DNA of 21,182 bases from a virus. Under the pieces are notes generated by a model. That model did no database searches. It saw nothing but the letters and a program-made list of their open reading frames with translations, and was not told where the DNA came from. Every line of letters starts with the position of its first letter. Position 1 is the stretch's first letter. Position numbers and translations under genes: made by a program. Shown here piece by piece: positions 1 through 21,061 of the stretch. The DNA lies in the IMG/VR virus record IMGVR_UViG_3300043469_000847, positions 1 through 21,182 of that record; one strand, given 5' to 3'.

Positions 1-292
1 GTCTAGATACATACTTAGGGTTGATTTCTTTTGATTTGTTTGATTCAAGGTAGCCTCCGTGGAAAGGACCAATTTTATCATTTTGATAAAGTGAACCATT
101 TGCTACAACAATGTTACAACAACCTACAGAGGTATTATAAGTAGTTGGTAAAATGTTCCAGGTGTTTGCTCTTACAAGAGCAAGATCACCTTCAGATAAA
201 GTGTTATTAGGAGTACCTAACACACCAAGCGCTTTTTGGGTAAAGTTGCTTACCAAAAAACTCTTATTAAACGCGTGATTAAAATAAGACAT
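1..292 (-). CDS. Partial structural-type protein, N-terminal 97 residues
   Basis: The gene starts at an ATG on the minus strand (complement of 290-292) and reads open through 97 codons to the window edge, so its C-terminus is missing. The visible protein begins MSYFNHAFNKSFLV. It has a Cys pair (GCCN) near residue 59 and a motif NDKIGPFHGGY near residues 72-82. I see no signal peptide or membrane helix. It follows the Dps-like and connector genes in the late structural operon, after a 64-base AT-rich gap with a TATATTTA box 20 bases before the start. Its position suggests a virion component, possibly a major tail or neck protein, but I cannot name the family. That the ORF is real is well supported by its A-rich leader and clean start; the function is a guess from position. 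Confidence 0.7.
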   Translation of the reverse strand, partial: MSYFNHAFNKSFLVSNFTQKALGVLGTPNNTLSEGDLALVRANTWNILPTTYNTSVGCCNIVVANGSLYQNDKIGPFHGGYLESNKSKEINPKYVSR

Positions 293-356: not shown

Positions 357-875
357 TTATTTTAAGAAAAGCAATTTGTATTTGGTAGAATTAATCGCAT
401 CCTTAACTAAATCTAAGTTGTTTACAATCTCAGAGTATGGCATCATACCCTGAAGTTTGTTGATAGAGTTATACATATCTCTAAGATATGCTACACCATC
501 TGCTACAGTATCTAATGTTCTGATAGGCATATCGGTGTAACTTAAAAGCTTCTCTGTTACTCCTTGATATCCTTCTATAAGAGTATCTGCATGACCATGA
601 AGACCATCATAAAAAGTATTAAGAGCTTTGTGTGCCGCATAAGAACCCTCACCAGTTACTCTTAAATGAAGTCTATGAAAACTTGTAGCAGCATTCATCA
701 TCTCTGTTGCACATGCCGCTGTCATTGTATCTAATGAACTACCGCCAACTCCAGTACTTGGAGTAGGTTCAGGTTTAGCTGGTTCTGTTTTAGGTTGTGT
801 AACAACAGGCTGAGGTCTACTAAGTGTTTTAGTAGGCTCAGGATTTCTTTTTAATAGTCTTGATTTTGTTTCCAT
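357..875 (-). CDS. Dps/ferritin-like protein with proline-rich N-terminal tail
   Basis: This 172-aa protein has a disordered proline-rich N-terminus (residues 11-40) followed by a helical domain. The segment from residue 70 reads H-x11-H-x14-D-x3-E (H70, H82, D97, E101). E. coli Dps ferroxidase residues H51, H63, D78 and E82 have exactly this spacing, and the conserved Gly five residues after the first His is also present (G75). The fourth Dps acid, D67, is replaced by N86, although D90 lies one turn away. The C-terminus ends in TKYKLLFLK. From memory the family resembles an uncharacterised phage domain, DUF5856. A four-helix mini-ferritin that binds iron or DNA is the best guess. The basic, proline-rich tail could tether it to DNA or the capsid. 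It sits two bases after the connector gene, inside the structural operon, so it may be a virion protein. The catalytic role is inference because one ligand is changed. Confidence 0.65.
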   Translation of the reverse strand: METKSRLLKRNPEPTKTLSRPQPVVTQPKTEPAKPEPTPSTGVGGSSLDTMTAACATEMMNAATSFHRLHLRVTGEGSYAAHKALNTFYDGLHGHADTLIEGYQGVTEKLLSYTDMPIRTLDTVADGVAYLRDMYNSINKLQGMMPYSEIVNNLDLVKDAINSTKYKLLFLK

Positions 876-877
876 GA

Positions 878-1576
878 TTAGTTGTTACGTTCTGCAGTTT
901 CAGTACCTCTAGAGAATTGGTTACCAGATTCTATATCTCCAGCTAAAATACTGACTGTTTCATCTATGATTACTTCTATGATATCATCTTTAAATTCACA
1001 TTCTACATTCTGCGTAGATTCTACACTAGTATATGGATCAACACATCCTTGAATTTGAATTTGTATAGGTTGTCTATAATAAATTAAATTAGCTGATTCT
1101 ACTTCAAATTCTCCATTTGTATAAATGTGAGTAGTATTTCCAATAAGAGTAGCAAATGTTTCAGCCCATTCAAAGTTTGGTTGTTTTGCTTTATCTCTTA
1201 ATAGTTGATTTAAATCTCCTTCCTGTGCAAGATAGACTGTCATTCTTCTTTTGTCACAACAGTCTTTCTTAGCATAAACATCTACTCTCTTCCATTGTAA
1301 ATAGTCACCGGGTAGATTTGCAAAATAATAATATTCTTTATTATTAACAGATAAAGCTTCTGTATTTAAAAGAACTTGAAGGTCATCCTTTCTTCTAGTA
1401 GAACCTTCATCACCTTCTTTAACAATATTAATACCATGCAATTGTCTTCTAGCCCACTCAACTTGTGCTTTATTAAATGCCTCAACTATTTGCCAACATT
1501 CAATGTTGTCATAGTCTTGACTATCTAATTTATTTAGCCGTTGCTTAACTTTTATTTCAATTGTGCTATTTAACAT
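878..1576 (-). CDS. Probable head-tail connector or neck protein
   Basis: This is a 232-aa soluble protein without a signal peptide or membrane helix. The N-terminal 45 residues are helical (NIECWQIVEAFNKAQVEWARRQL), as is typical of phage adaptor or head-completion proteins. A beta-rich middle follows: YYYFANLPGDYLQWKRVDVYA, and later LIYYRQPIQIQIQG. The C-terminal helix (residues 195-225) carries DDIIEVIIDETVSILAGDIES, resembling the helix that ends several connector proteins. It lies downstream of the capsid genes and one gene before the left-edge structural gene, where head-tail joining proteins are usually coded. A CC pair near residues 106-107 has no known role. Connector identity is inferred from size, predicted fold and position; I do not recognise the exact family. 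Confidence 0.5.
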   Translation of the reverse strand: MLNSTIEIKVKQRLNKLDSQDYDNIECWQIVEAFNKAQVEWARRQLHGINIVKEGDEGSTRRKDDLQVLLNTEALSVNNKEYYYFANLPGDYLQWKRVDVYAKKDCCDKRRMTVYLAQEGDLNQLLRDKAKQPNFEWAETFATLIGNTTHIYTNGEFEVESANLIYYRQPIQIQIQGCVDPYTSVESTQNVECEFKDDIIEVIIDETVSILAGDIESGNQFSRGTETAERNN

Positions 1577-1579
1577 CTG

Positions 1580-1870
1580 TTATTTCTTTTTATTCATTTT
1601 GCCAAGAGTAATAGCAAGTCTTGCTCTTTGACCAAGTTTGCCATCTTTCTTAGCAGCTGCAGCTAATTTAGCTTTAGGAATAGTTTCTCCTTGTTTAACA
1701 CCAAGTTGTTCTCTAAGAGCTCCTGGTTTTTTAATAGCTCCTTGAATCCAGTTACCACCTTTTGCCATTTTTTTAGGTACAGCTTTTACCGACATACCTG
1801 GCTTCAATGGTTTTTTAACTGCACTAGGTACAGAATATTTCATTGGCTTTAGTTTGGCTGGAGCTTTCAT
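1580..1870 (-). CDS. Small lysine-rich phage protein, KKPGALREQLGV type
   Basis: This is a 96-aa, very basic protein. The first 37 residues are rich in Lys, Pro and Val and probably disordered. The conserved part starts at a MAKGGNWIQGAIKKPGAL stretch (about residues 35-52) and continues through GQRARLAITLGKM near the C-terminus. I recall similar short basic proteins in many environmental phages, but no characterised function. It carries one copy of the Gly-Gly motif shared by its neighbours. The gene is packed three bases from the connector gene and two bases from the next small basic gene, so they are translated together. A DNA-binding or virion-associated role is plausible from charge and context only. 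Confidence 0.6.
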   Translation of the reverse strand: MKAPAKLKPMKYSVPSAVKKPLKPGMSVKAVPKKMAKGGNWIQGAIKKPGALREQLGVKQGETIPKAKLAAAAKKDGKLGQRARLAITLGKMNKKK

Positions 1871-1872
1871 GA

Positions 1873-2151
1873 CTATTTCTTTTTAGCCATTTTTTTCTTA
1901 GCGCCTACAATAACATCAGCTCTAGTGATTTTATTCTTAGGAGCGGCAAGAGCAGCAAGTTTAGTATTTTTAACCATGCCACCTTTTTTCATTGTATTGA
2001 CACCTTGATAGTTAGGACCTGTAGGACCTGTTTGTGGAATACCATAGATCTGACCTTTTGGAGTAGCTTTACCTACAGTAGTTTTCATTGTACCACCACT
2101 TGCCATTTTTTTCATTGTACCACCGCATTTAGCACATGCAACTTTTTTCAT
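1873..2151 (-). CDS. Small basic protein with CxxC and Gly-Gly motifs
   Basis: This 92-aa protein starts MKKVACAKCGGTMKKMASGG. It has a Cys6-x2-Cys9 pair that could be half of a zinc site or a redox pair, and no second CxxC is present. Three Gly-Gly motifs occur (CGGTMKK, SGGTMKT, KGGMVKN). The C-terminal part, from about residue 65, reads LAALAAPKNKITRADVI and ends in Lys-rich KKKMAKKK. No membrane helix is seen. It belongs to the row of tiny basic proteins between the 338-aa gene and the connector. I cannot assign a function. The antisense strand here also has an 85-codon ORF, which I regard as a shadow. Confidence 0.55.
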   Translation of the reverse strand: MKKVACAKCGGTMKKMASGGTMKTTVGKATPKGQIYGIPQTGPTGPNYQGVNTMKKGGMVKNTKLAALAAPKNKITRADVIVGAKKKMAKKK

Positions 2152-2163
2152 AATATCTTAGTT

Positions 2164-2436
2164 TTAACAATTCCATTTTTTCAAAGAAAGAGCCTTTCTA
2201 GTAGGTCTTCCTTTTTCATCCTTCATAGGACCTTTGACACCAGACATTCTAGCACAAAATGATTTTCTCCTTTTAGCATCTTTGCTATCTGGATTAAGTT
2301 TTGATGGTTTGGTAGTTACGGCCATCTTAAGTTTGCTTCCAGGATTCTCTCTTCTATAAGAAGCTACACCTTTAGCATTAAGACCTCCAGTAGGATTCTT
2401 GCCTTCTTTGCGAGTCCAAGCTGCTGTCTTTGCCAT
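2164..2436 (-). CDS. Small basic phage protein (DUF6321-like)
   Basis: This 90-aa protein begins MAKTAAWTRKEGKNPTGGLN and continues with GVASYRRENPGSKLKMAVT. A Cys-containing block, KRRKSFCARMSG, lies near residues 56-67, and the protein ends RKALSLKKWNC. From memory this whole pattern is a widespread phage family of unknown function, DUF6321. It is strongly basic and short, has no signal peptide, and ends in Cys. Its two Cys could form a crosslink or a metal site between subunits. It is followed 12 bases later by the CxxC protein. Family membership is fairly secure by pattern; the function is unknown, and nucleic-acid binding is only suggested by charge. Confidence 0.65.
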   Translation of the reverse strand: MAKTAAWTRKEGKNPTGGLNAKGVASYRRENPGSKLKMAVTTKPSKLNPDSKDAKRRKSFCARMSGVKGPMKDEKGRPTRKALSLKKWNC

Positions 2437-2438
2437 AA

Positions 2439-2699
2439 TTAAGTAGTTAACAATTCATTTATTTCTTTTACAAGATCTTCTTTTGTACGATTGCCTTGCT
2501 CTATAAGAGTATAAAGAATAGTACCCTTTTTAAGTTCTTTTATGCCATAAATATATTTAATAGTACCAATGGTTACAACTATTAAATTTTCTTTAGAAGA
2601 ACCTCTTTCAATATTTTTAAGTGCGTCAATATAAGTTTCTAAGTTACTTAATGAACTTAGCAATACTTCAACTTTTTTTATATTTTCTTGTGACGGCAT
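2439..2699 (-). CDS. Small protein of unknown function
   Basis: This 86-aa protein differs in composition from its basic neighbours: it is close to neutral and has no Gly-Gly motif. An N-terminal helix (residues 4-32) is followed by beta-like segments ENLIVVTIGTIKYIYGI and KGTILYTLIEQG, then a C-terminal helix KEDLVKEINELLTT. This looks like a compact alpha-beta-alpha fold. No catalytic motif, signal peptide or membrane helix is visible. It is packed two bases from the genes on both sides, so it is probably expressed with them. I do not recognise it. Confidence 0.5.
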   Translation of the reverse strand: MPSQENIKKVEVLLSSLSNLETYIDALKNIERGSSKENLIVVTIGTIKYIYGIKELKKGTILYTLIEQGNRTKEDLVKEINELLTT

Positions 2700-2701
2700 A
2701 A

Positions 2702-3040
2702 TTATGCTTTTTTAACTCTTCTTCCCATTCCTACTTTAGACTTCTCAGCTTTTTTAGCAGCAAGTTTAGAAGGAGTTAATTCATATTTAGTTTTAGGCGT
2801 ATCCTTAGATACTTTCCTTGTTGGCCGGCAGTATTCATTTTTACCACCGGCTCCACAAGGTTTACCAGATTTTGTGTCTTGCCATTTTTCTGCTTGCCAT
2901 CTTTTCAAGTCTGATCCTGCTTTTGTTTTTCTAACAGTCCCAGAACCTTTCCTACATTTAGCAATAGCTTGAGAAGCCCTTGCTGAAGGAAACACAGCAT
3001 ACTGTGCTTTTACTTTACTATAGCAAGCATCCTTTGGCAT
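2702..3040 (-). CDS. Small basic Cys-containing protein (DUF5872-like)
   Basis: This 112-aa basic protein begins MPKDACYSKVKAQYAVFPSA and has ASQAIAKCRKGSG shortly after. That N-terminal block with two Cys about 23 residues apart matches, from memory, the DUF5872 family found in phages and giant viruses. A second Cys pair lies in KPCGAGGKNEYCRP (about residues 61-74). The four Cys could bind zinc, but this is not shown. The C-terminus is Lys-rich (LAAKKAEKSKVGMGRRVKKA). The gene starts one base after the stop of the 242-aa Gly-Gly protein. Function is unknown. Charge and context suggest nucleic-acid or virion association. Confidence 0.6.
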   Translation of the reverse strand: MPKDACYSKVKAQYAVFPSARASQAIAKCRKGSGTVRKTKAGSDLKRWQAEKWQDTKSGKPCGAGGKNEYCRPTRKVSKDTPKTKYELTPSKLAAKKAEKSKVGMGRRVKKA

Positions 3041-3041
3041 A

Positions 3042-3770
3042 TTAACAAGACTTACCTTTCATACCACCCATTTTCATTTTAGGTGATGCAGCTTTAGGAG
3101 CTTTGCTAATACCACCAGTTCTTCCTGTTGCTTTTTTAGCAGCAGATTTAGGTTCAGCAGATTTAGCTGGTCTACCTTTAGCAACTTTAGAAGCTTGTAC
3201 AGATGCATTAGGATTTACCATTCCACCTGTTTTATATTTAGTAGCTCCACCTTTTTTCATACCAGGACCGCTTGTTCCAGTTCTTGCATCCTTAATTGCT
3301 TTTGCAGCTTCAGCAGCAGCACCAGCAGTTTTAGCTACATTTCCAGAAATAGTTGAAACTTTCTCATATGTTGAAGGTTCTGTACCAGCATTAATTCTAT
3401 CAAGTTTAGCTTTCATTTTAGCTTGCTTGATATCTTGTCTAGTAACACCACCATCTTGATATTTTTTAGCACCACCATTTTTATAACCCATTACAGATTT
3501 AACAGCTGATTTAGCTCCATCATAAAATGATCCTTTACCAGTATAGTTAGGATATCTTTTTTGTAAAGAATCATCTACACTTTTCATTGCGCTACCTGCA
3601 GCTTTATAAGCTTTGTATTGAGGAGTTGCTTTTACTACAGCTTTAGCTGTAGATTTTGCAGACTTAACTGTGTCATCAACACCTTTTTTTACACCTTTAG
3701 CAACTTGCTTTACTCCAGATTTAATTTGTGAAGTAGCACCACCATTTTGTTTTTTAACTAGTTTTTTCAT
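3042..3770 (-). CDS. Lysine/alanine-rich protein with seven Gly-Gly motifs
   Basis: I chose the ATG at complement 3768-3770, giving 242 aa starting MKKLVKKQNGGATSQ. An in-frame ATG 24 bases upstream would overlap the previous stop and add an unlikely MEFLIIYK. The protein is low in complexity, rich in Lys, Ala, Gly and Ser, and has histone-tail-like stretches. Seven Gly-Gly motifs recur: NGGATS, NGGAKK, DGGVTR, KGGATK, TGGMVN, TGGISK and MGGMKG. Two alanine-rich helices (about residues 55-75 and 145-165) could be amphipathic. It has a single Cys, at the last residue. No enzyme motif or signal peptide is seen. It is the largest of the small basic proteins encoded after the capsid module. A virion DNA-binding or scaffold-like role is a guess. 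Confidence 0.55.
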   Translation of the reverse strand: MKKLVKKQNGGATSQIKSGVKQVAKGVKKGVDDTVKSAKSTAKAVVKATPQYKAYKAAGSAMKSVDDSLQKRYPNYTGKGSFYDGAKSAVKSVMGYKNGGAKKYQDGGVTRQDIKQAKMKAKLDRINAGTEPSTYEKVSTISGNVAKTAGAAAEAAKAIKDARTGTSGPGMKKGGATKYKTGGMVNPNASVQASKVAKGRPAKSAEPKSAAKKATGRTGGISKAPKAASPKMKMGGMKGKSC

Positions 3771-3781
3771 TTTATATATAA

Positions 3782-4798
3782 TTAAGAATTCCAATATTTT
3801 TCACAGGCTTTTGCAAGATCCGTTAGAACATCCTCATTAAGTGGATTCTTCATGTACTCAATTACATCTGAAACATTGCGTCCTAACATTGCATTAGTCT
3901 TAGCATGGTAGATGTAACCATCAGCCTTATTAATAATATACTTAAAAAATACGGAATCACGTACAATTGATTTAATTTTAAGTGTTTCCATATCCATTCC
4001 TACAGCTTCAAGGAAAGACTTAGCAGCTCTTTCTTTGTTGCTTTCAACTCCTTCACCGTTAATGTACAAGTCCATGTTCTCATACATAACATCATTAGGT
4101 GTTGACTTTCTATATTGTGTACTATTACCGTCTACTACTTTAGCTACGTAGAATAGTTTAGTACTGTTCTTGTCAAATAATTTCTGAAGTTCCGCCAATG
4201 CTTTGTTACGCATTTTCTTGTATTCAGTTCTTGCAATAACTGTCTGCTCCTGTTTGTCTAAGTAAAACTTAGGAGGAACAGCTCTTGATCTTGCATCATC
4301 AAAACTTTTTGATACAATAGAAAAACCCCCAGCCTCAATAGCATAAAGTTTAATTCTATCATATGGGTCATTAGGATCTAAGAACAAAGGTTCATTACCA
4401 CAAGCAATATGAATTCTATTCCAGAATTCTTTATTATCAGGCTTGAGCAATTTAACTTGGTTCCAAAACTGTGGATCCTCAATATCTAAAACATTAGCAG
4501 CAAGCTCTCTCTCGAGCTCTGCTACAGCAGTTCTAATTTCTCTTACTCTTGCTTGTTTATCTTCAGGTAAAAGAAGTTTAATCTCTGGTGCAAATTCATT
4601 TAGACCAGTAAGATATCTAATAACTCCATTTTGCTCAAGGCAAGCAAGTTGTTCAAAGTGCTTAACTCCATCATATAGAGATAAGCCATAATTTTCCAAT
4701 CCCATATTAGAGACTGCATTGTCAAAGAACGGACGGACTGCAATTGCTGTTTTTTTAACTATGCCGTGACCGGTTTCTACCATTGTGAAATTTTCCAT
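3782..4798 (-). CDS. Conserved-looking 338-aa protein of unknown function
   Basis: This 338-aa soluble protein has no signal peptide. It begins MENFTMVETGHGIVKK. Residues 85-100 form a charged helix (REIRTAVAELERELAANV). A central part has DPNDPYDRIKLYAIEAGG near residues 142-159, and residues 190-215 form another charged helix. The C-terminus is helical (LTDLAKACEKYWNS). It is the first gene after the terminator that follows the capsid gene, and it shares a 16-base leader sequence with the scaffold-like gene. Both facts suggest a separately tuned, possibly abundant late product. I do not recognise a family. A structural or capsid-associated protein is most likely from context. Confidence 0.5.
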   Translation of the reverse strand: MENFTMVETGHGIVKKTAIAVRPFFDNAVSNMGLENYGLSLYDGVKHFEQLACLEQNGVIRYLTGLNEFAPEIKLLLPEDKQARVREIRTAVAELERELAANVLDIEDPQFWNQVKLLKPDNKEFWNRIHIACGNEPLFLDPNDPYDRIKLYAIEAGGFSIVSKSFDDARSRAVPPKFYLDKQEQTVIARTEYKKMRNKALAELQKLFDKNSTKLFYVAKVVDGNSTQYRKSTPNDVMYENMDLYINGEGVESNKERAAKSFLEAVGMDMETLKIKSIVRDSVFFKYIINKADGYIYHAKTNAMLGRNVSDVIEYMKNPLNEDVLTDLAKACEKYWNS

Positions 4799-4881: not shown

Positions 4882-6498
4882 TTAGAATGATCCACCAGTT
4901 ACTGGGTTTCTCATAACAATTTTCAACACTTTAGTTGGGTCTTTAACCCAGATAGCTGGCATTGTTTGGCTCATCATTACACGGTAACCATTGAACTGAC
5001 CAGAAGACTGGAAGCCTTGGCTACGTCCCATGTAATCCATAGTACCATTTTGATACCACCATTTCAATTGATTATCCCAAGACAATTTCAACAAGAAGAT
5101 ATTGTCATTAGTATTATCAGTGATATCAAAGATAATGAATGAGTAAGAAGATAATGGGAAACCATCAATGATTGGGTTCTCAATATCATTTGTATGAACA
5201 TTGTCAAATGCTGGGTTCAATACAAACTTAACGTTAGCCAAGAATGGGATAACATAAGATGTATAAGCAAAACCAAAGTTCAAGTCCATACCTTTACCAG
5301 TGATTGCACCGATGTCAGCAGCTTGAATAAGAAGACCAGAAGAGATAGCCTCTTGTTTGATAGCCTCATTAACCATACGCATACCACCCATACCAGTTTG
5401 TACAACTAGGCTACGTTTTGGATCTGGACCTTGGAATTCAACTTTACCATTGAAGAAGTTGTAGATCTCAGAACGGAACAAGTCAAGTGTGAAGTTATTC
5501 TTATTGTATACTCTTTTGAATGAGTTGTCCAACTGCTTCCAAAGACCCACAGACAATCTAACATCATCTGGACCATCCTGACGTACTCTACCACCATGAC
5601 CCCACATGAGGTATGTTTCAATATCAATTGCAATTTTGCTCAAGTGAGCCGCTTCCATATTGGTCAAGAATGTACGTGACAAGTTACCATTGTCAAATGC
5701 TTTTTTAACAGCATCTTTACCCATTACTTTTACCATATCTTCCAAAGAAGAAATAGACGGATCCATAGTTTTGTCAAAGTTTCTCCAGATCTCAGTTACA
5801 GGAACTGTACCATCTGCATTCATACCACCTTTGATCATCAAGTCAGCACGGCTAGAGATAGAGTAGTGAACGTGAGCTTCAGCACCACCTACGTAGTTGT
5901 AGAATTCACGGAAACCTGCATTTGTTACAATGTCAGAAAATCTTTCACCATACTCACCACGTGCAGAACCTTTACGGAATACTTTAGTACCATTAGCCAA
6001 GTACTTATTATCTAAGTATTTGTAGTTGTCATTGTTTACCAACTGTACAGTATAGATAAAACCATCACCAATAGGGAGAATATCTTCAGAGGTAATGTAC
6101 ATCTCAACACCATTGTATTTGTCATAAGTGATGATATCACCATGTCCAAATTCTCTTTTGTTAAGTTTGATACGGAAAGTAGTACCTTCAATACCTTTGA
6201 AATCATTGGTTGGTTCCATATCCTCAACAATGTAAGGAAGGTCAATAGAAACCGGAGTTTGCCATTTGTACTCTCCACGAGCATTATCTACTTGGATAAC
6301 ATTTTTACCACCAAATGATGACATTTGATAAAGAGGCATTTCTACCTTTTGAGCCATAGCCCATAGATCCACTGGACCAAGATCCATTGGTTCAGCATCT
6401 TTCAGCATGTTCACCAAGTGGTATGAATCCACATGGGAACTTGCGTTGTAAGCGGTATCCCTAAGGAATATACCATTGTTTAAAACTGGAGTTGCCAT
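4882..6498 (-). CDS. Major capsid protein candidate
   Basis: This 538-aa protein starts MATPVLNNGIFLRDTAYNAS. It is soluble and rich in aromatic residues and Gly, with an alternating alpha/beta pattern: a helix at residues 31-55 (VDLWAMAQKVEMPLY) and long beta segments later (YGERFSDIVTNAGFREFYNY). It has no signal peptide or low-complexity region. It comes directly after the acidic scaffold-like gene in the order TerL, portal, scaffold, then this gene, and a strong terminator follows. That is the standard place for the HK97-fold major capsid protein. Its length exceeds that of HK97 gp5 but is usual for large Bacteroidota phages. The identification rests on size and gene order; I cannot prove the HK97 fold by eye. 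Its leader is AT-rich without a Shine-Dalgarno. Confidence 0.75.
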   Translation of the reverse strand: MATPVLNNGIFLRDTAYNASSHVDSYHLVNMLKDAEPMDLGPVDLWAMAQKVEMPLYQMSSFGGKNVIQVDNARGEYKWQTPVSIDLPYIVEDMEPTNDFKGIEGTTFRIKLNKREFGHGDIITYDKYNGVEMYITSEDILPIGDGFIYTVQLVNNDNYKYLDNKYLANGTKVFRKGSARGEYGERFSDIVTNAGFREFYNYVGGAEAHVHYSISSRADLMIKGGMNADGTVPVTEIWRNFDKTMDPSISSLEDMVKVMGKDAVKKAFDNGNLSRTFLTNMEAAHLSKIAIDIETYLMWGHGGRVRQDGPDDVRLSVGLWKQLDNSFKRVYNKNNFTLDLFRSEIYNFFNGKVEFQGPDPKRSLVVQTGMGGMRMVNEAIKQEAISSGLLIQAADIGAITGKGMDLNFGFAYTSYVIPFLANVKFVLNPAFDNVHTNDIENPIIDGFPLSSYSFIIFDITDNTNDNIFLLKLSWDNQLKWWYQNGTMDYMGRSQGFQSSGQFNGYRVMMSQTMPAIWVKDPTKVLKIVMRNPVTGGSF

Positions 6499-6528: not shown

Positions 6529-7800
6529 TTAAAATCTCTTGAACAAATTGTTTGGTCTAGAGATGGTTCTTTGCGGTTTTTGAGTTCTTCTTGCTGTACT
6601 TTCTTCAGAAACTACAGAGGAGCTGATCTTTCTACCTTCTTCTGTTTTTAATTTTCTTACAGTTTCTTCAACTGTTTTCTTTGAGCCTTGCTCTCTTACT
6701 TTACCTTTATATCCATCTGGATCTGCAAGTAACCAAAGAGCTTCAGCAATTAAGTCATGTCTTGGTTCTACAAACTGATACTTTTCTAAAAGGTGACCCA
6801 ACATGTTAGTTGGCTTACCTGATATAGAAGGATAGTTAGGTTGAACAAGGCCTGAGTATAATAAGCTTTGTACTTTTCTATCAAGCTTGATACCGCCAAT
6901 GTCTCCTTTAGATAATGTGTTATATACATTGTCTGTGTACATTTTAGCTTGCTGAGCTTGTTGTTCTTTCTTTGTTTCTTGTTCAGCTAATTGTCTTGCA
7001 ATAATCTCTTCTTGCATTCTATCCAACTTCGGTTTAAACTGTTGAGCTTTTTGACCCAACTTTCCTAAGTCATCCCAGTCTTGGATTTCAGATTCAATTT
7101 CTTCTGGTGTACCAAACTGTGTTGCATATAAATATTGTCTTGCAATTTCAGCTTGATCATATTCACTATCTGGATCTAATTGTACAACTTCCTCAACTTG
7201 AGCAAGTGTTCTAAATAGAGACTTAAGATCTGTACCACCATCTGCAACATACTTAGCAGCAATTTGAAGTTCTTCTGGAAGAGATTGAAAAAATTCCTTT
7301 GGGGTATCTTGTCTTATTTTATTTTCTCTCTCTTGGAAGTTAGCTTCAAATAATTCACGGAAATCTTTGGTAGTATATTCTTCTAATGGTTTATCATCAT
7401 CAAAAGGAATAAGTGCACCCTCCTCAATCATTTTCATTGCTAACTCAGAAAGACCAGACTTATCTACCTTTGGTCTTCCTTTGTTTCCAGTTTCCTCTTC
7501 TTGACTAATCATATCATCAAGTTGAGCAATTGCTTCTTCTACAGCTGCCGGACTTGCAGTATCATTTGCACTAGCTGAATCATTAGATTTAGAAGTACTC
7601 TTGTCAAGGAACGAAGTGTCTACATCTTTTGGTTTAGAAAAGACTGACTGTTTGTTATCATCTTGGTCACCATCTGTAGGAAGCATTACACTTTCTGCAC
7701 TAGGCATTCCAAATAACTCATCAATGTTTACATCTACTTGACCTACCGTTGTAGTGTCTAAGACCTGATCTTCTTCAGGATTTTTTGTTGGTTGTGACAT
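6529..7800 (-). CDS. Scaffold-like acidic coiled-coil protein
   Basis: This 423-aa protein lies between the portal and capsid genes. The N-terminal 130 residues are acidic and Ser/Thr-rich (VDVNIDELFGMPSAE, LDDMISQEEETG) and probably disordered. Residues 145-170 and 245-295 form long charged helices; the latter is a Gln/Glu/Lys-rich coiled coil (EEIIARQLAEQETKKEQQAQ). The C-terminus is basic (TQKPQRTISRPNNLFKRF), as in scaffolding proteins whose basic tail contacts the capsid protein. No protease triad is obvious. Capsid scaffold is the best call from position, composition and basic tail. An internal virion protein is the alternative. The leader repeats the 16 bases found before the 338-aa gene. 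Confidence 0.6.
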   Translation of the reverse strand: MSQPTKNPEEDQVLDTTTVGQVDVNIDELFGMPSAESVMLPTDGDQDDNKQSVFSKPKDVDTSFLDKSTSKSNDSASANDTASPAAVEEAIAQLDDMISQEEETGNKGRPKVDKSGLSELAMKMIEEGALIPFDDDKPLEEYTTKDFRELFEANFQERENKIRQDTPKEFFQSLPEELQIAAKYVADGGTDLKSLFRTLAQVEEVVQLDPDSEYDQAEIARQYLYATQFGTPEEIESEIQDWDDLGKLGQKAQQFKPKLDRMQEEIIARQLAEQETKKEQQAQQAKMYTDNVYNTLSKGDIGGIKLDRKVQSLLYSGLVQPNYPSISGKPTNMLGHLLEKYQFVEPRHDLIAEALWLLADPDGYKGKVREQGSKKTVEETVRKLKTEEGRKISSSVVSEESTARRTQKPQRTISRPNNLFKRF

Positions 7801-18369: not shown

Positions 18370-18863
18370 TATTTTATAATTAATCCTGTAGTTAGTATTC
18401 CATTTAATATGAAAGAGATGTTTCTTTGTCTCTTTAGTTTCTTGATATCAAAAGCCTGTGATGTAATAATAGTATCCTGGGAGTTTATAATGTATCTCTG
18501 GGCTACTATAATGGTATCCTGGGCAGATATAATGGCATCCTTCTCTTTGTCTCTACGGTAGAGTACATGAATCATTGTATCCTGGATCTGTGTAATTCTA
18601 AAGGTATCTCTAGAGTTTTTAACATTTTCTAGTTCTGCTTGTAAATCAAAGAGTCCATGGTTGAGTTCATCAATAATAACTTTGCTGTTGTCTATTGCTT
18701 TACCTTGTTGTTTGATTACAGTCTCCTTACCTTGAATTCTGGTTTCAATAGTCTTTTGTGTACTTACTGGGTATACCTGTTTAGGTTCTCTCATAATAAG
18801 CACCACACACATTACTCCTAGAGCAATCTGAATTAAAAGAGTTATGTTAGCTTTATTTATCAT
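18369..18863 (-). CDS. Membrane protein with heptad repeats, two terminal helices
   Basis: I use the ATG at complement 18861-18863 (164 aa, MINKANITLLIQIALG). It overlaps the fibre stop as ATGA and gives a clean N-terminal helix; an upstream ATG 33 bases earlier would add 11 residues inside the fibre gene. The protein has an N-terminal membrane helix (about 5-24), a Gln-rich coiled coil, four near-identical heptads (DTIIVAQ, RYIINSQ, DTIITSQ and a first DAIISAQ) near residues 105-135, and a C-terminal hydrophobic end (ISFILNGILTTGLIIK). The heptads are coded by a 21-base tandem repeat. It could be a large spanin-like or a tail or membrane-associated protein. No family is recognised. Confidence 0.45.
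   Translation of the reverse strand: MINKANITLLIQIALGVMCVVLIMREPKQVYPVSTQKTIETRIQGKETVIKQQGKAIDNSKVIIDELNHGLFDLQAELENVKNSRDTFRITQIQDTMIHVLYRRDKEKDAIISAQDTIIVAQRYIINSQDTIITSQAFDIKKLKRQRNISFILNGILTTGLIIK
18468..18551 (-). repeat. Four 21-base tandem repeats coding heptads
   Basis: Four copies start at 18468, 18489, 18510 and 18531 with exact 21-base spacing; each begins aat on the plus strand and carries a version of GTATCCTGGG. They code seven-residue units of the coiled coil. The last copy has diverged. Such repeats can change length by slippage while keeping the reading frame and heptad phase. Confidence 0.8.
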
Positions 18864-21061
18864 GGTACAATATTTAATACACCAGCATTTGACCAAACAG
18901 AACCTGAAGGTAAACCAGTTGCTACTGTAGGGATATTTTTAATTGACAGGTTATTGACAAATGTTGCACATACTCTATCTGAAATGATATTAGAACCAAC
19001 TATAAATGAACGAGTACAAGATGCTGTGTTTGAAGAACCTCCCAAAATTCCTGAATAAGCACCACTTGCCGTATTTGTACAACCTCCGCTTACTATTGAA
19101 AAATCAGAAGATGCTAAATTATTACATCCTCCACCTATTGTAGACACAAGTCCTGTTGCTCTGTTTATAATACCACCACCTACTGTAGAATATATTCCAC
19201 CTGCTTGATTCTGAAATCCTCCACCTATGAAAGAGAATTGACCAGCATTAACTATAGCTGGAGTAGCAGTAAATGCACATGATGCTAATGACCAAGTTCC
19301 ACAACTTGTATTATTACCAACACCCCCTGTTACTACCGCACCATAAGATAAGCAGCCACTTGTTGAATTACATACGTTGTTGCAATTACCACCACCAATA
19401 AAACTATCTATGGAGTTAGTTGAGTTATAATGTCCACCAGCAACGGAACTTCTTAGTCCAGAGGATATATTTTGACATCCACCTAATACTGCTGAAGCAA
19501 CACCACTTGCTGTGTTTACTCTTCCACCAGCAACTACTGTTGTATTATTACTTGCTGTATTAGTGGTACCCCCTCCAATAAATGAAGTATTTCCACTTGC
19601 AATATTACAATTTCCTCCAAGTATTGCTGCACTAAGGTTACTCGATGTATTTTGGAAACCACCACCAATTGCGGTATAACCAAAACATGCTGAATGATTA
19701 AAACCACCAGCAATTATAGCACAAGCACCAACTGCTTTATTACAAAAACCTCCACCAACAAATGACGCTGTCCCTGATCTATTTTGTAAACCACCTCCAA
19801 TAAATGAATATTGACCAGCATCACATATAACTGGTGCAAGTGAAAATGAACATGTAGGTAAATCCCATACACCACCTATAGTATTGTTTCCTACTCCACC
19901 AACTACAACTGCTCCATAAGCAAGACATCCACTTGTTACATTACAAACATGGTTGCAATTACCACCACCAATAAAACCGCCTGCTGCTTGAGAAGAATTT
20001 CTTACACCTCCACTGATAGTTGATTGATTACCTAATCCCTTATTACCATAACCACCACTTATTGTGGAAAAACCTCCACCTGTTGTATTTAGGCAACCAC
20101 CACTTATTGTTGAACTTAAACCATTAGCAATATTACAAGAACCACCACCAATTGTAGACAATTGACCTGAAGCAGCGTTTTGAAAACCTCCTCCAATGAA
20201 TGAATATTGACCGGCATCACAAATGGTAGTTGGACCAGATGTAAATTTGCAATCTGCTAAACTCCATGTACCTCCAACAGTGTTATTTCCTACTCCACCT
20301 GCAACTACTGCTCCAAATGCAAGACATCCTGATATAGAATTACAAGCAGCATTGGTATTACCACCACCAATAAAACCTGCAAATGCATTTACAAGATTTT
20401 TTTGTCCACCAACTATTGTTGATTGTAATCCACTTGAAACATTTATTTGACCACCTCCAACTATTGAATAATAACCACTTGCTGTATTACCACCACCACC
20501 ACTAACTGTTGAATAACAATCACTTGCTGTATTACCATATCCTCCACTTATTGTTGAATACTTAGAACTTGCAGTATTATTATAACCTCCACTAACTGTT
20601 GAATAAGCACTACTTGTAGTATTAGATTTACCACCAGCTATCACCATGCTATTATTGTAATACCCACTCATTGTATTACCAAATCCCCCAGAAATAGTTG
20701 AACGACTAATACCATATCCACTGATTGTATTACCAAATCCCCCAGTAATCACATTGTACATACCAACGGTAAGAAGCCCACCTGAAGAATTGGTATTTTC
20801 TTTGCCACTAAGAATAGAAGAATAATCACTATTTGTTGAATTACGTATACCAAATACGGTTGAATATGCACCTAATGCAGTATTTAAAGCACCACATCTT
20901 AATGAAGAACCTAATCCTGCTCCTTCTATAATGATACCTCCTGCTGCAGGAGCTGTTTCTAATGCTACAGCAATACACTCAAGACCTTGAAGTACTCTTA
21001 ACTCATAGTCAAAGTTTGAACCTTTATCACCATATGATGGATTTCCGTTACCTAGTCCCAT
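18860..21061 (-). CDS. Beta-roll repetitive tail fibre or adhesin, Cys-rich
   Basis: This 733-aa protein is the likely receptor-binding fibre. Residues 1-30 (MGLGNGNPSYGDKGSNFDYE, then LRVLQGLECI) look like a virion-anchoring head. From about residue 60 to 690 it is built of roughly 15-residue repeats such as YSTISGGYGNTASDC and YSTVSGGGGNTASGY, resembling YadA/Hep_Hag left-handed beta-roll adhesins. Three inserted modules (residues 229-295, 362-428, 552-618) contain GCLxYGAVVxGGVGNNT and TWSLAxC. About 28 Cys occur, unusual for such a fibre. The C-terminus is IPTVATGLPSGSVWSNAGVL, typical of a capping or trimerising end. It is followed by the lysis genes with an ATGA overlap. Fibre assignment is firm; receptor and anchor details are inferred. 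Confidence 0.8.
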   Translation of the reverse strand: MGLGNGNPSYGDKGSNFDYELRVLQGLECIAVALETAPAAGGIIIEGAGLGSSLRCGALNTALGAYSTVFGIRNSTNSDYSSILSGKENTNSSGGLLTVGMYNVITGGFGNTISGYGISRSTISGGFGNTMSGYYNNSMVIAGGKSNTTSSAYSTVSGGYNNTASSKYSTISGGYGNTASDCYSTVSGGGGNTASGYYSIVGGGQINVSSGLQSTIVGGQKNLVNAFAGFIGGGNTNAACNSISGCLAFGAVVAGGVGNNTVGGTWSLADCKFTSGPTTICDAGQYSFIGGGFQNAASGQLSTIGGGSCNIANGLSSTISGGCLNTTGGGFSTISGGYGNKGLGNQSTISGGVRNSSQAAGGFIGGGNCNHVCNVTSGCLAYGAVVVGGVGNNTIGGVWDLPTCSFSLAPVICDAGQYSFIGGGLQNRSGTASFVGGGFCNKAVGACAIIAGGFNHSACFGYTAIGGGFQNTSSNLSAAILGGNCNIASGNTSFIGGGTTNTASNNTTVVAGGRVNTASGVASAVLGGCQNISSGLRSSVAGGHYNSTNSIDSFIGGGNCNNVCNSTSGCLSYGAVVTGGVGNNTSCGTWSLASCAFTATPAIVNAGQFSFIGGGFQNQAGGIYSTVGGGIINRATGLVSTIGGGCNNLASSDFSIVSGGCTNTASGAYSGILGGSSNTASCTRSFIVGSNIISDRVCATFVNNLSIKNIPTVATGLPSGSVWSNAGVLNIVP
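19208..20377 (-). repeat. Three copies of a 67-residue module inside the fibre
   Basis: Copies lie at about 20177-20377, 19778-19978 and 19208-19408. Each codes a stretch starting FIGGGN and including CN(S/V)xSGCL, GAVVxGGVGNN, a Trp, and (N/D)AGQ(Y/F)SFIGGG. Cys positions within the module are mostly kept. The copies are separated by 133 and 190 residues of 15-residue repeats. They probably form lateral protrusions from the beta-roll and could bind receptors. Confidence 0.75.

Follow-up and report, generated by a model that had tools for sequence, protein, structure and literature searches.

The DNA analysed here, referred to as the window, is a viral record of 21,182 bases (IMG/VR IMGVR_UViG_3300043469_000847, positions 1 to 21,182) and belongs to a crAss-like phage. 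It contains a Crassvirales-type virion module, with a crass portal, a crass major capsid protein (MCP) and a ring protein present in order. An open reading frame (ORF) for a Dps-like protein is found directly behind the ring gene, at a position that we call the slot. The following features were assigned.

1..292, minus strand: start of the next structural gene (MSYFNHAF...), the downstream border of the slot; a homologous border gene is found in the loci.
357..875, minus strand: Dps-like mini-ferritin of 172 aa with an ATG start, DUF5856 / phrog_858, from profiles and predicted fold.
878..1576, minus strand: tail-barrel ring/adaptor protein, crassvirus R1-like, upstream of the slot (phrog_29507; BLAST).
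2164-2436: DUF6321 protein in a Lys-rich cassette.
2702-3040: DUF5872 protein in the same cassette.
4882..6498, minus strand: MCP (PF23898 Crass_capsid).
6529..7800, minus strand: 423-aa protein in the portal-MCP interval, with a C-terminal QRTISRPNNLFKRF resembling the cage tag described below (position, structure, motif).

The first-pass annotation had located the Dps-like gene in a virion structural operon, and indeed the portal, MCP and ring protein adjoin it; a terminase gene is also among its neighbours. By BLAST, the ring protein is related to that of csAssE-Sib and to gp062 of phi4:1, which has been detected by mass spectrometry (MS). The gene at 1..292 runs past the window end and shows weak similarity to XAI97412 of Lbo-JY46. 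The order TerL, portal, 423-aa gene, MCP, 338-aa gene and ring gene is the same as in Cellulophaga phi4:1 and Leptolyngbya phage Lbo-JY46; in these two phages the ring gene is followed by the next structural gene with nothing between. A cassette of small Lys-rich proteins (1580-3794), flanked by the 338-aa gene and the ring gene, varies strongly in content and order among relatives, which suggests a rapidly changing group of basic proteins that may associate with DNA.

The relationship to Dps, originally proposed from an alignment made by eye, was borne out by profiles and by structure prediction. The ORF product scored 53.6 bits against DUF5856 (PF19174; curated cut-off 34.6) and matched phrog_858 ('starvation-inducible transcriptional regulator') with E=3.8e-18; the NCBIfam search returned nothing useful. 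Because phmmer with the single sequence gave only borderline Dps matches in the PDB (0.038), a profile was built from 20 relatives, and its best 11 matches were all Dps-family or Dps-like. The ferritin domain PF00210 was matched by 7 of the 20 relatives (best 2.4e-4) and not by the window protein itself. The AF2 model obtained on the alignment (pLDDT 77 overall, about 90 in most of the core) contains helices at residues 47-72, 78-102, 124-144 and 148-169 and a short BC helix at 106-112, that is, a predicted four-helix bundle of the Dps type preceded by a disordered arm (1-45). Foldseek placed E. coli Dps first in the PDB (probability 1.00, E 0.012), and nearly all of the top 50 matches were Dps proteins, the few remaining ones being ferritin-like; these matches are modest in both E-value (about 0.01) and TM-score (about 0.5), the disordered arm being counted in the query length. 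Among viral models (BFVD), the best matches were uncharacterised phage proteins, followed at lower rank by phage proteins named Dps and two crass-like 'DNA-binding proteins'. Proteins of the giant viruses Pithovirus LCPAC404 and Fadolivirus (115-129 aa, E about 0.012) also appeared among these model matches, and a Dps-like fold may exist in giant viruses as well.

In every relative recovered with the Dps query and having a locus that covers the region, the Dps gene lies directly behind the ring gene. To avoid the circularity of a Dps-anchored search, ring proteins were used as queries. In the first such search, 77 ring genes had enough downstream sequence; 71 were followed by Dps and, of the remaining six, five by a classical ferritin in the corresponding position. 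All ring-anchored searches together yielded 124 distinct ring genes, followed by Dps (103), by ferritin (11) or by an empty slot (10), and never by another protein; a ring-gene search with the Lbo-JY46 query gave no relatives. Over all loci the slot held Dps in 148, ferritin in 31, a ferritin-then-Dps tandem in two and nothing in 10, again without any other protein, and it was always flanked by the ring gene and the MAYFNHAF gene. The tandem arrangement, ferritin first, belongs to two lineages (L168, L169, L171, L173), and ten lineages are without a slot gene. The slot ferritin is a classical one (Pfam Ferritin PF00210, 1.7e-26; PDB ferritins, 2.6e-22) with a complete ferroxidase site, and it is unrelated in sequence to the slot Dps. 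Only 4 of 50,697 public phage records were matched by ferritins of this kind. Other viral contigs, up to 142 kb long and without the ring-gene context (L193, L196-L210), encode short ferritins that lack the tag and are about 38-47% identical to the slot ferritin, and phage-borne ferritin seems more widespread than the public phage records suggest.

The residues expected to form the ferroxidase site were then compared across both kinds of slot protein.

573..668, minus strand: ferroxidase ligand codons (H70 666-668, H82 630-632, N86 618-620, D97 585-587, E101 573-575).

As first annotated, H70, H82, D97 and E101 align, ungapped between them, with H51, H63, D78 and E82 of E. coli Dps (reference sequence verified as PDB 1dps). 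When the window protein and E. coli Dps were aligned with two closer homologues and four distant DUF5856 proteins from phages, only five columns stayed invariant: H70, H82, D97, E101 and G105. The same four ligands show zero substitutions in 152 unique slot Dps proteins, the few missing cells being gaps. The exchange of the fifth Dps ligand, D67, for N86 was likewise confirmed, and position 86 is N in 85, G in 60 and D in 4 of the 152 proteins; because this ligand is absent, the ORF 357..875 is Dps-like and not a canonical Dps. The Gly previously described as conserved between the two His did not hold up: G75, which aligns with G56 of Dps, varies in the phage family ('VKDLGS' variants), and G77 is invariant instead. 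In Dps, the ferroxidase site combines two His from one subunit with Asp and Glu from its two-fold mate. H82 and D97 are 15 residues and about 22 Å apart within helix B alone. A wide separation of the four residues in the model, which the annotation would have taken as a refutation, is therefore no valid objection because the site is inter-subunit. In 31 unique slot ferritins, no substitution was found at E17, E50, H53, E94, Q127 and E130 (numbering of E. coli FtnA, reference verified). Judged from sequence conservation, the catalytic competence of the ORF product is well supported. The loss of D67 would fit a purely structural four-helix protein devoid of metal chemistry; however, the other ligands of both cage types are kept without substitution and the slot is only ever filled by ferroxidase cages, which makes such a protein very improbable.

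Both slot proteins carry a disordered N-terminal arm of very variable sequence, which combines a short motif with a flexible linker. The proline-rich tail noticed at first pass does exist, but it sits at the N-terminus (residues 1-46). In the window protein the motif occurs twice.

846..860, minus strand: N-terminal tag R6-L-L-K-R10, first copy of the R-x-L-x-R motif, common to the Dps and ferritin slot proteins.
813..830, minus strand: K16-T-L-S-R-P21, second copy of the motif.

The motif has the form K/R-x-L/I-x-R-P/N, or more broadly [KR]-x-[LI]-x-[RK]-[PN], with one or two copies per Dps arm. Counted as [LI][KSQPA]R and compared with composition-preserving shuffles, the tag was present in 101 of the 109 unique Dps arms, against a mean of 7.5 and a maximum of 18 in the shuffles, and in 24 of the 25 unique slot ferritin arms, against a mean of 2.1 and a maximum of 8, the arm sequences being related so that these counts are not independent events. 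None of the eight ferritins outside the slot contained it. The exceptions are conservative (KLKKP, KLTRP, LRRP), as are other replacements of the motif (KLQRP, KIPRP), and the shortest arms consist of little beyond the motif and a Gly/Ser linker. At the tandem loci, the ferritin, which is the first gene, bears RMLKR and the Dps behind it has no tag. The tag lies at varying distances from the start codon and is written with synonymous codons, among which TTA AAA AGA is dominant.

The net charge of the Dps tail has a median of +2 (range -2 to +5), and the tail was dropped as a candidate for a strong DNA-binding arm because this charge is too low. A genome-compacting DNA-binding protein, acting with the adjoining Lys-rich small proteins and using its tail as E. 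coli Dps does, could draw on the Dps precedent, on the vicinity of the basic cassette and on the K/R residues of the tail. We consider such a role quite unlikely, in view of the tail charge, of very short tails that retain the motif only and of the substitution by ferritin, since ferritins are not known to compact DNA.

The occupants of the slot have been exchanged repeatedly. On a tree of 188 ring-protein sequences, the presence of ferritin changed 18 times, and at least 12 times when branches with an SH-aLRT under 95 were collapsed; because recombination could have separated ring and slot genes, these numbers count changes of the slot occupant as seen against the ring gene. One clean exchange separates phages whose ring proteins are 95.7% identical. 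The loci L434 and L438, with DNA 98.5-99.0% identical, differ by a clean presence or absence of the Dps gene. Between L014 and L160, which carry Dps and ferritin, respectively, the flanks are about 90% and 81% identical, and at the left breakpoint homology stops exactly after the AGAATGTTAAAAAGA codons, i.e. at the end of the tag. Given this coincidence, the tag could have been carried along in recent swaps. The same breakpoint and the prevalence of TTA AAA AGA would also be compatible with a tag devoid of function, which would merely anchor recombination or help to initiate translation and be left behind with the upstream gene while the body is swapped. This is an unlikely reading, since the distance to the ATG varies, the replacements are conservative, and the shortest and most divergent tails still have the motif, in loci whose ring proteins are about 50% identical. 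Since the ferroxidase function is all that the exchanged cage types have in common, the property under selection is most likely iron oxidation or storage.

A related motif terminates the 423-aa protein encoded in the portal-MCP interval.

6532..6570, minus strand: C-terminal motif R411-T-I-S-R-P-N-N-L-F-K-R-F423, conserved in relatives.

This protein is probably the scaffold, as indicated by its position, its predicted helical make-up and its same-position counterpart in phi4:1, gp065, which is not marked as MS-detected. The model, of low confidence (pLDDT 57), consists of helices throughout, a long one at 248-298 among them, and its ends are disordered; it is compatible with a scaffold and does not prove it. 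Close relatives end in QRT[LI]SRPNNLFKRF and further relatives in related endings; in distant crass-like phages, the cage-like motif is absent from the C-terminus of the scaffold-like protein. In one complete-looking contig of 118 kb, [RK]x[LI][KSP]R[PNQDT] gave five matches in 35,294 residues, two of them in the Dps arm and one at the scaffold-like C-terminus, a coincidence that is weaker in other contigs. In the 24 window proteins, the regular expression [LIV][KSQRT]RP gave two matches, against a rough chance estimate of about one. Since this is no better than chance, the resemblance rests on conservation in relatives and on rarity in the whole contig, for a motif that is short and was defined after being seen. 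The likeness between the C-terminus of the scaffold-like protein and the cage tag is thus no more than suggestive.

A position reserved in the virion operon, two kinds of cage and one tag together point to a need of the virion or of its assembly, and on the grounds of tag and gene position this is the likeliest place of cage function. We infer the oligomer, chemistry, docking, encapsidation and purpose of the cage as follows. A Dps-type ferroxidase cage, of 12 subunits by analogy, would be made late in infection alongside the virion proteins. Through the motif in its disordered N-terminal arm, the cage would bind the machinery of capsid assembly, plausibly at the site used by the C-terminus of the scaffold-like protein; it would in this way be drawn to procapsids and probably remain in the virion as cargo. 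Within the particle it would oxidise Fe(II), with peroxide if it behaves like Dps, and store the iron as a ferric mineral, so that DNA in the particle or just injected from it would suffer less Fenton damage. The need would be for a ferroxidase cage and not for a particular protein, as a 24-mer-type ferritin with the same tag substitutes in many relatives. Against this view, a cage of 9-12 nm cannot pass a portal while folded, and ten lineages manage without a slot gene. No virion proteomics was found for any carrier, and phi4:1, an isolated crass-like phage with MS data, has an empty slot. Taken as a whole, tag-recruited ferroxidase cages in capsid assembly, probably retained as virion cargo, are the best explanation, and we consider it about evenly balanced whether it is correct.

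The main rival is a cytoplasmic stress-protection enzyme, i.e. an auxiliary metabolic gene for a ferroxidase that shields the infected cell from reactive oxygen species (ROS), with the late-operon site serving expression only and the tag acting as a minor localisation or solubility element. Phage Dps genes have so far been read as helpers of the host oxidative-stress response, and this is the published interpretation of gut-phage Dps and Mn-catalase genes (Benler et al. 2021, PMC8008677). In addition, the DUF5856 genes of T4-like phages, unlike that of the window, lie among non-virion genes such as thymidine kinase, and the strict conservation of the catalytic residues suits an enzyme of this type. 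However, the fixed position with two virion genes as borders is left unexplained, and so is a tag common to two sequence-unrelated cages and absent from the ferritins of other phages. We regard this rival as a serious possibility, although short of an even chance. The Benler et al. study shares with our system a phage-borne Dps and the iron/ROS theme; its available portion describes no fixed virion-operon slot, ferritin swap or N-terminal tag.

Phage Dps proteins, DUF5856 and crassvirus cargo proteins are already known. With E. coli Dps and the bacterial Dps mini-ferritins, the window protein shares the predicted four-helix bundle with a short BC helix and the H, H, D, E spacing. Unlike E. coli Dps, the phage proteins have N or G for D67, a Pro-rich N-terminal arm of 46 residues in which L-K-R / S-R-P motifs are conserved, a conserved C-terminus KYKLLFL and a virion-operon location. 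The DUF5856 (PF19174) / phrog_858 proteins of Klebsiella phage Tauntaun and of crAss-like cr108_1 (gp063, 32.7 bits against DUF5856, just below the cut-off of 34.6) belong to the same family but lack the tagged arm. Although cr108_1 is likewise a crassvirus, its gene, annotated as a DNA-binding protein, lies between capsid and DNA-metabolism genes and not directly behind the ring gene. In the literature on DUF5856, Lbo-JY46 and crass-like phages with ferritin or Dps, only PMC8008677 was relevant, and no report of a ferritin/Dps exchange slot or of a shared N-terminal motif was found in the open-access literature, outside which most subscription papers and preprints lie.

In the EncFtn system, a ferroxidase is loaded into an HK97-fold shell via a short terminal peptide. 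The likeness to our cages is a works-like analogy; on the phage side the motif is conserved and loading is proposed. EncFtn differs in that it has two helices, bears its peptide at the C-terminus and belongs to a cellular compartment, whereas the window encodes predicted full cages with an N-terminal motif in a phage genome; the housing of EncFtn in encapsulin is described in PMC5012862. In favour of a cargo role for the cages, crassvirus virions hold large amounts of cargo protein (PMC10172136); in PhicrAss001 this cargo resides in capsid and tail, but the proteins described there include large injected ones such as viral RNA polymerases and not ferritin-family cages. More tentatively, and with doubt outweighing belief, crass-like phages might package iron cages through a transferable N-terminal motif that imitates the capsid-binding end of the scaffold, 12-mer and 24-mer ferroxidases being freely exchanged behind the tag, as a viral counterpart of the encapsulin-ferritin compartments. 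These data suggest that iron and oxidative damage matter for the virus particle or its assembly, offer a testable cargo-loading motif for crass-like phages and raise the possibility that iron connects phage particles with their environment.

Two further observations concern the host and a repeat-rich protein. The ring-Dps-structural arrangement was also seen on a contig binned with a Sphingomonadaceae MAG (L321), the one locus found in a search of genome contigs and too little for a host call; the binning is perhaps an error, perhaps a host hint. At 18860-21061, the window encodes a 733-aa protein made of repeated GG-x-x-N / ISGG motifs and longer repeated blocks, which is probably a fibre or adhesin-like protein.
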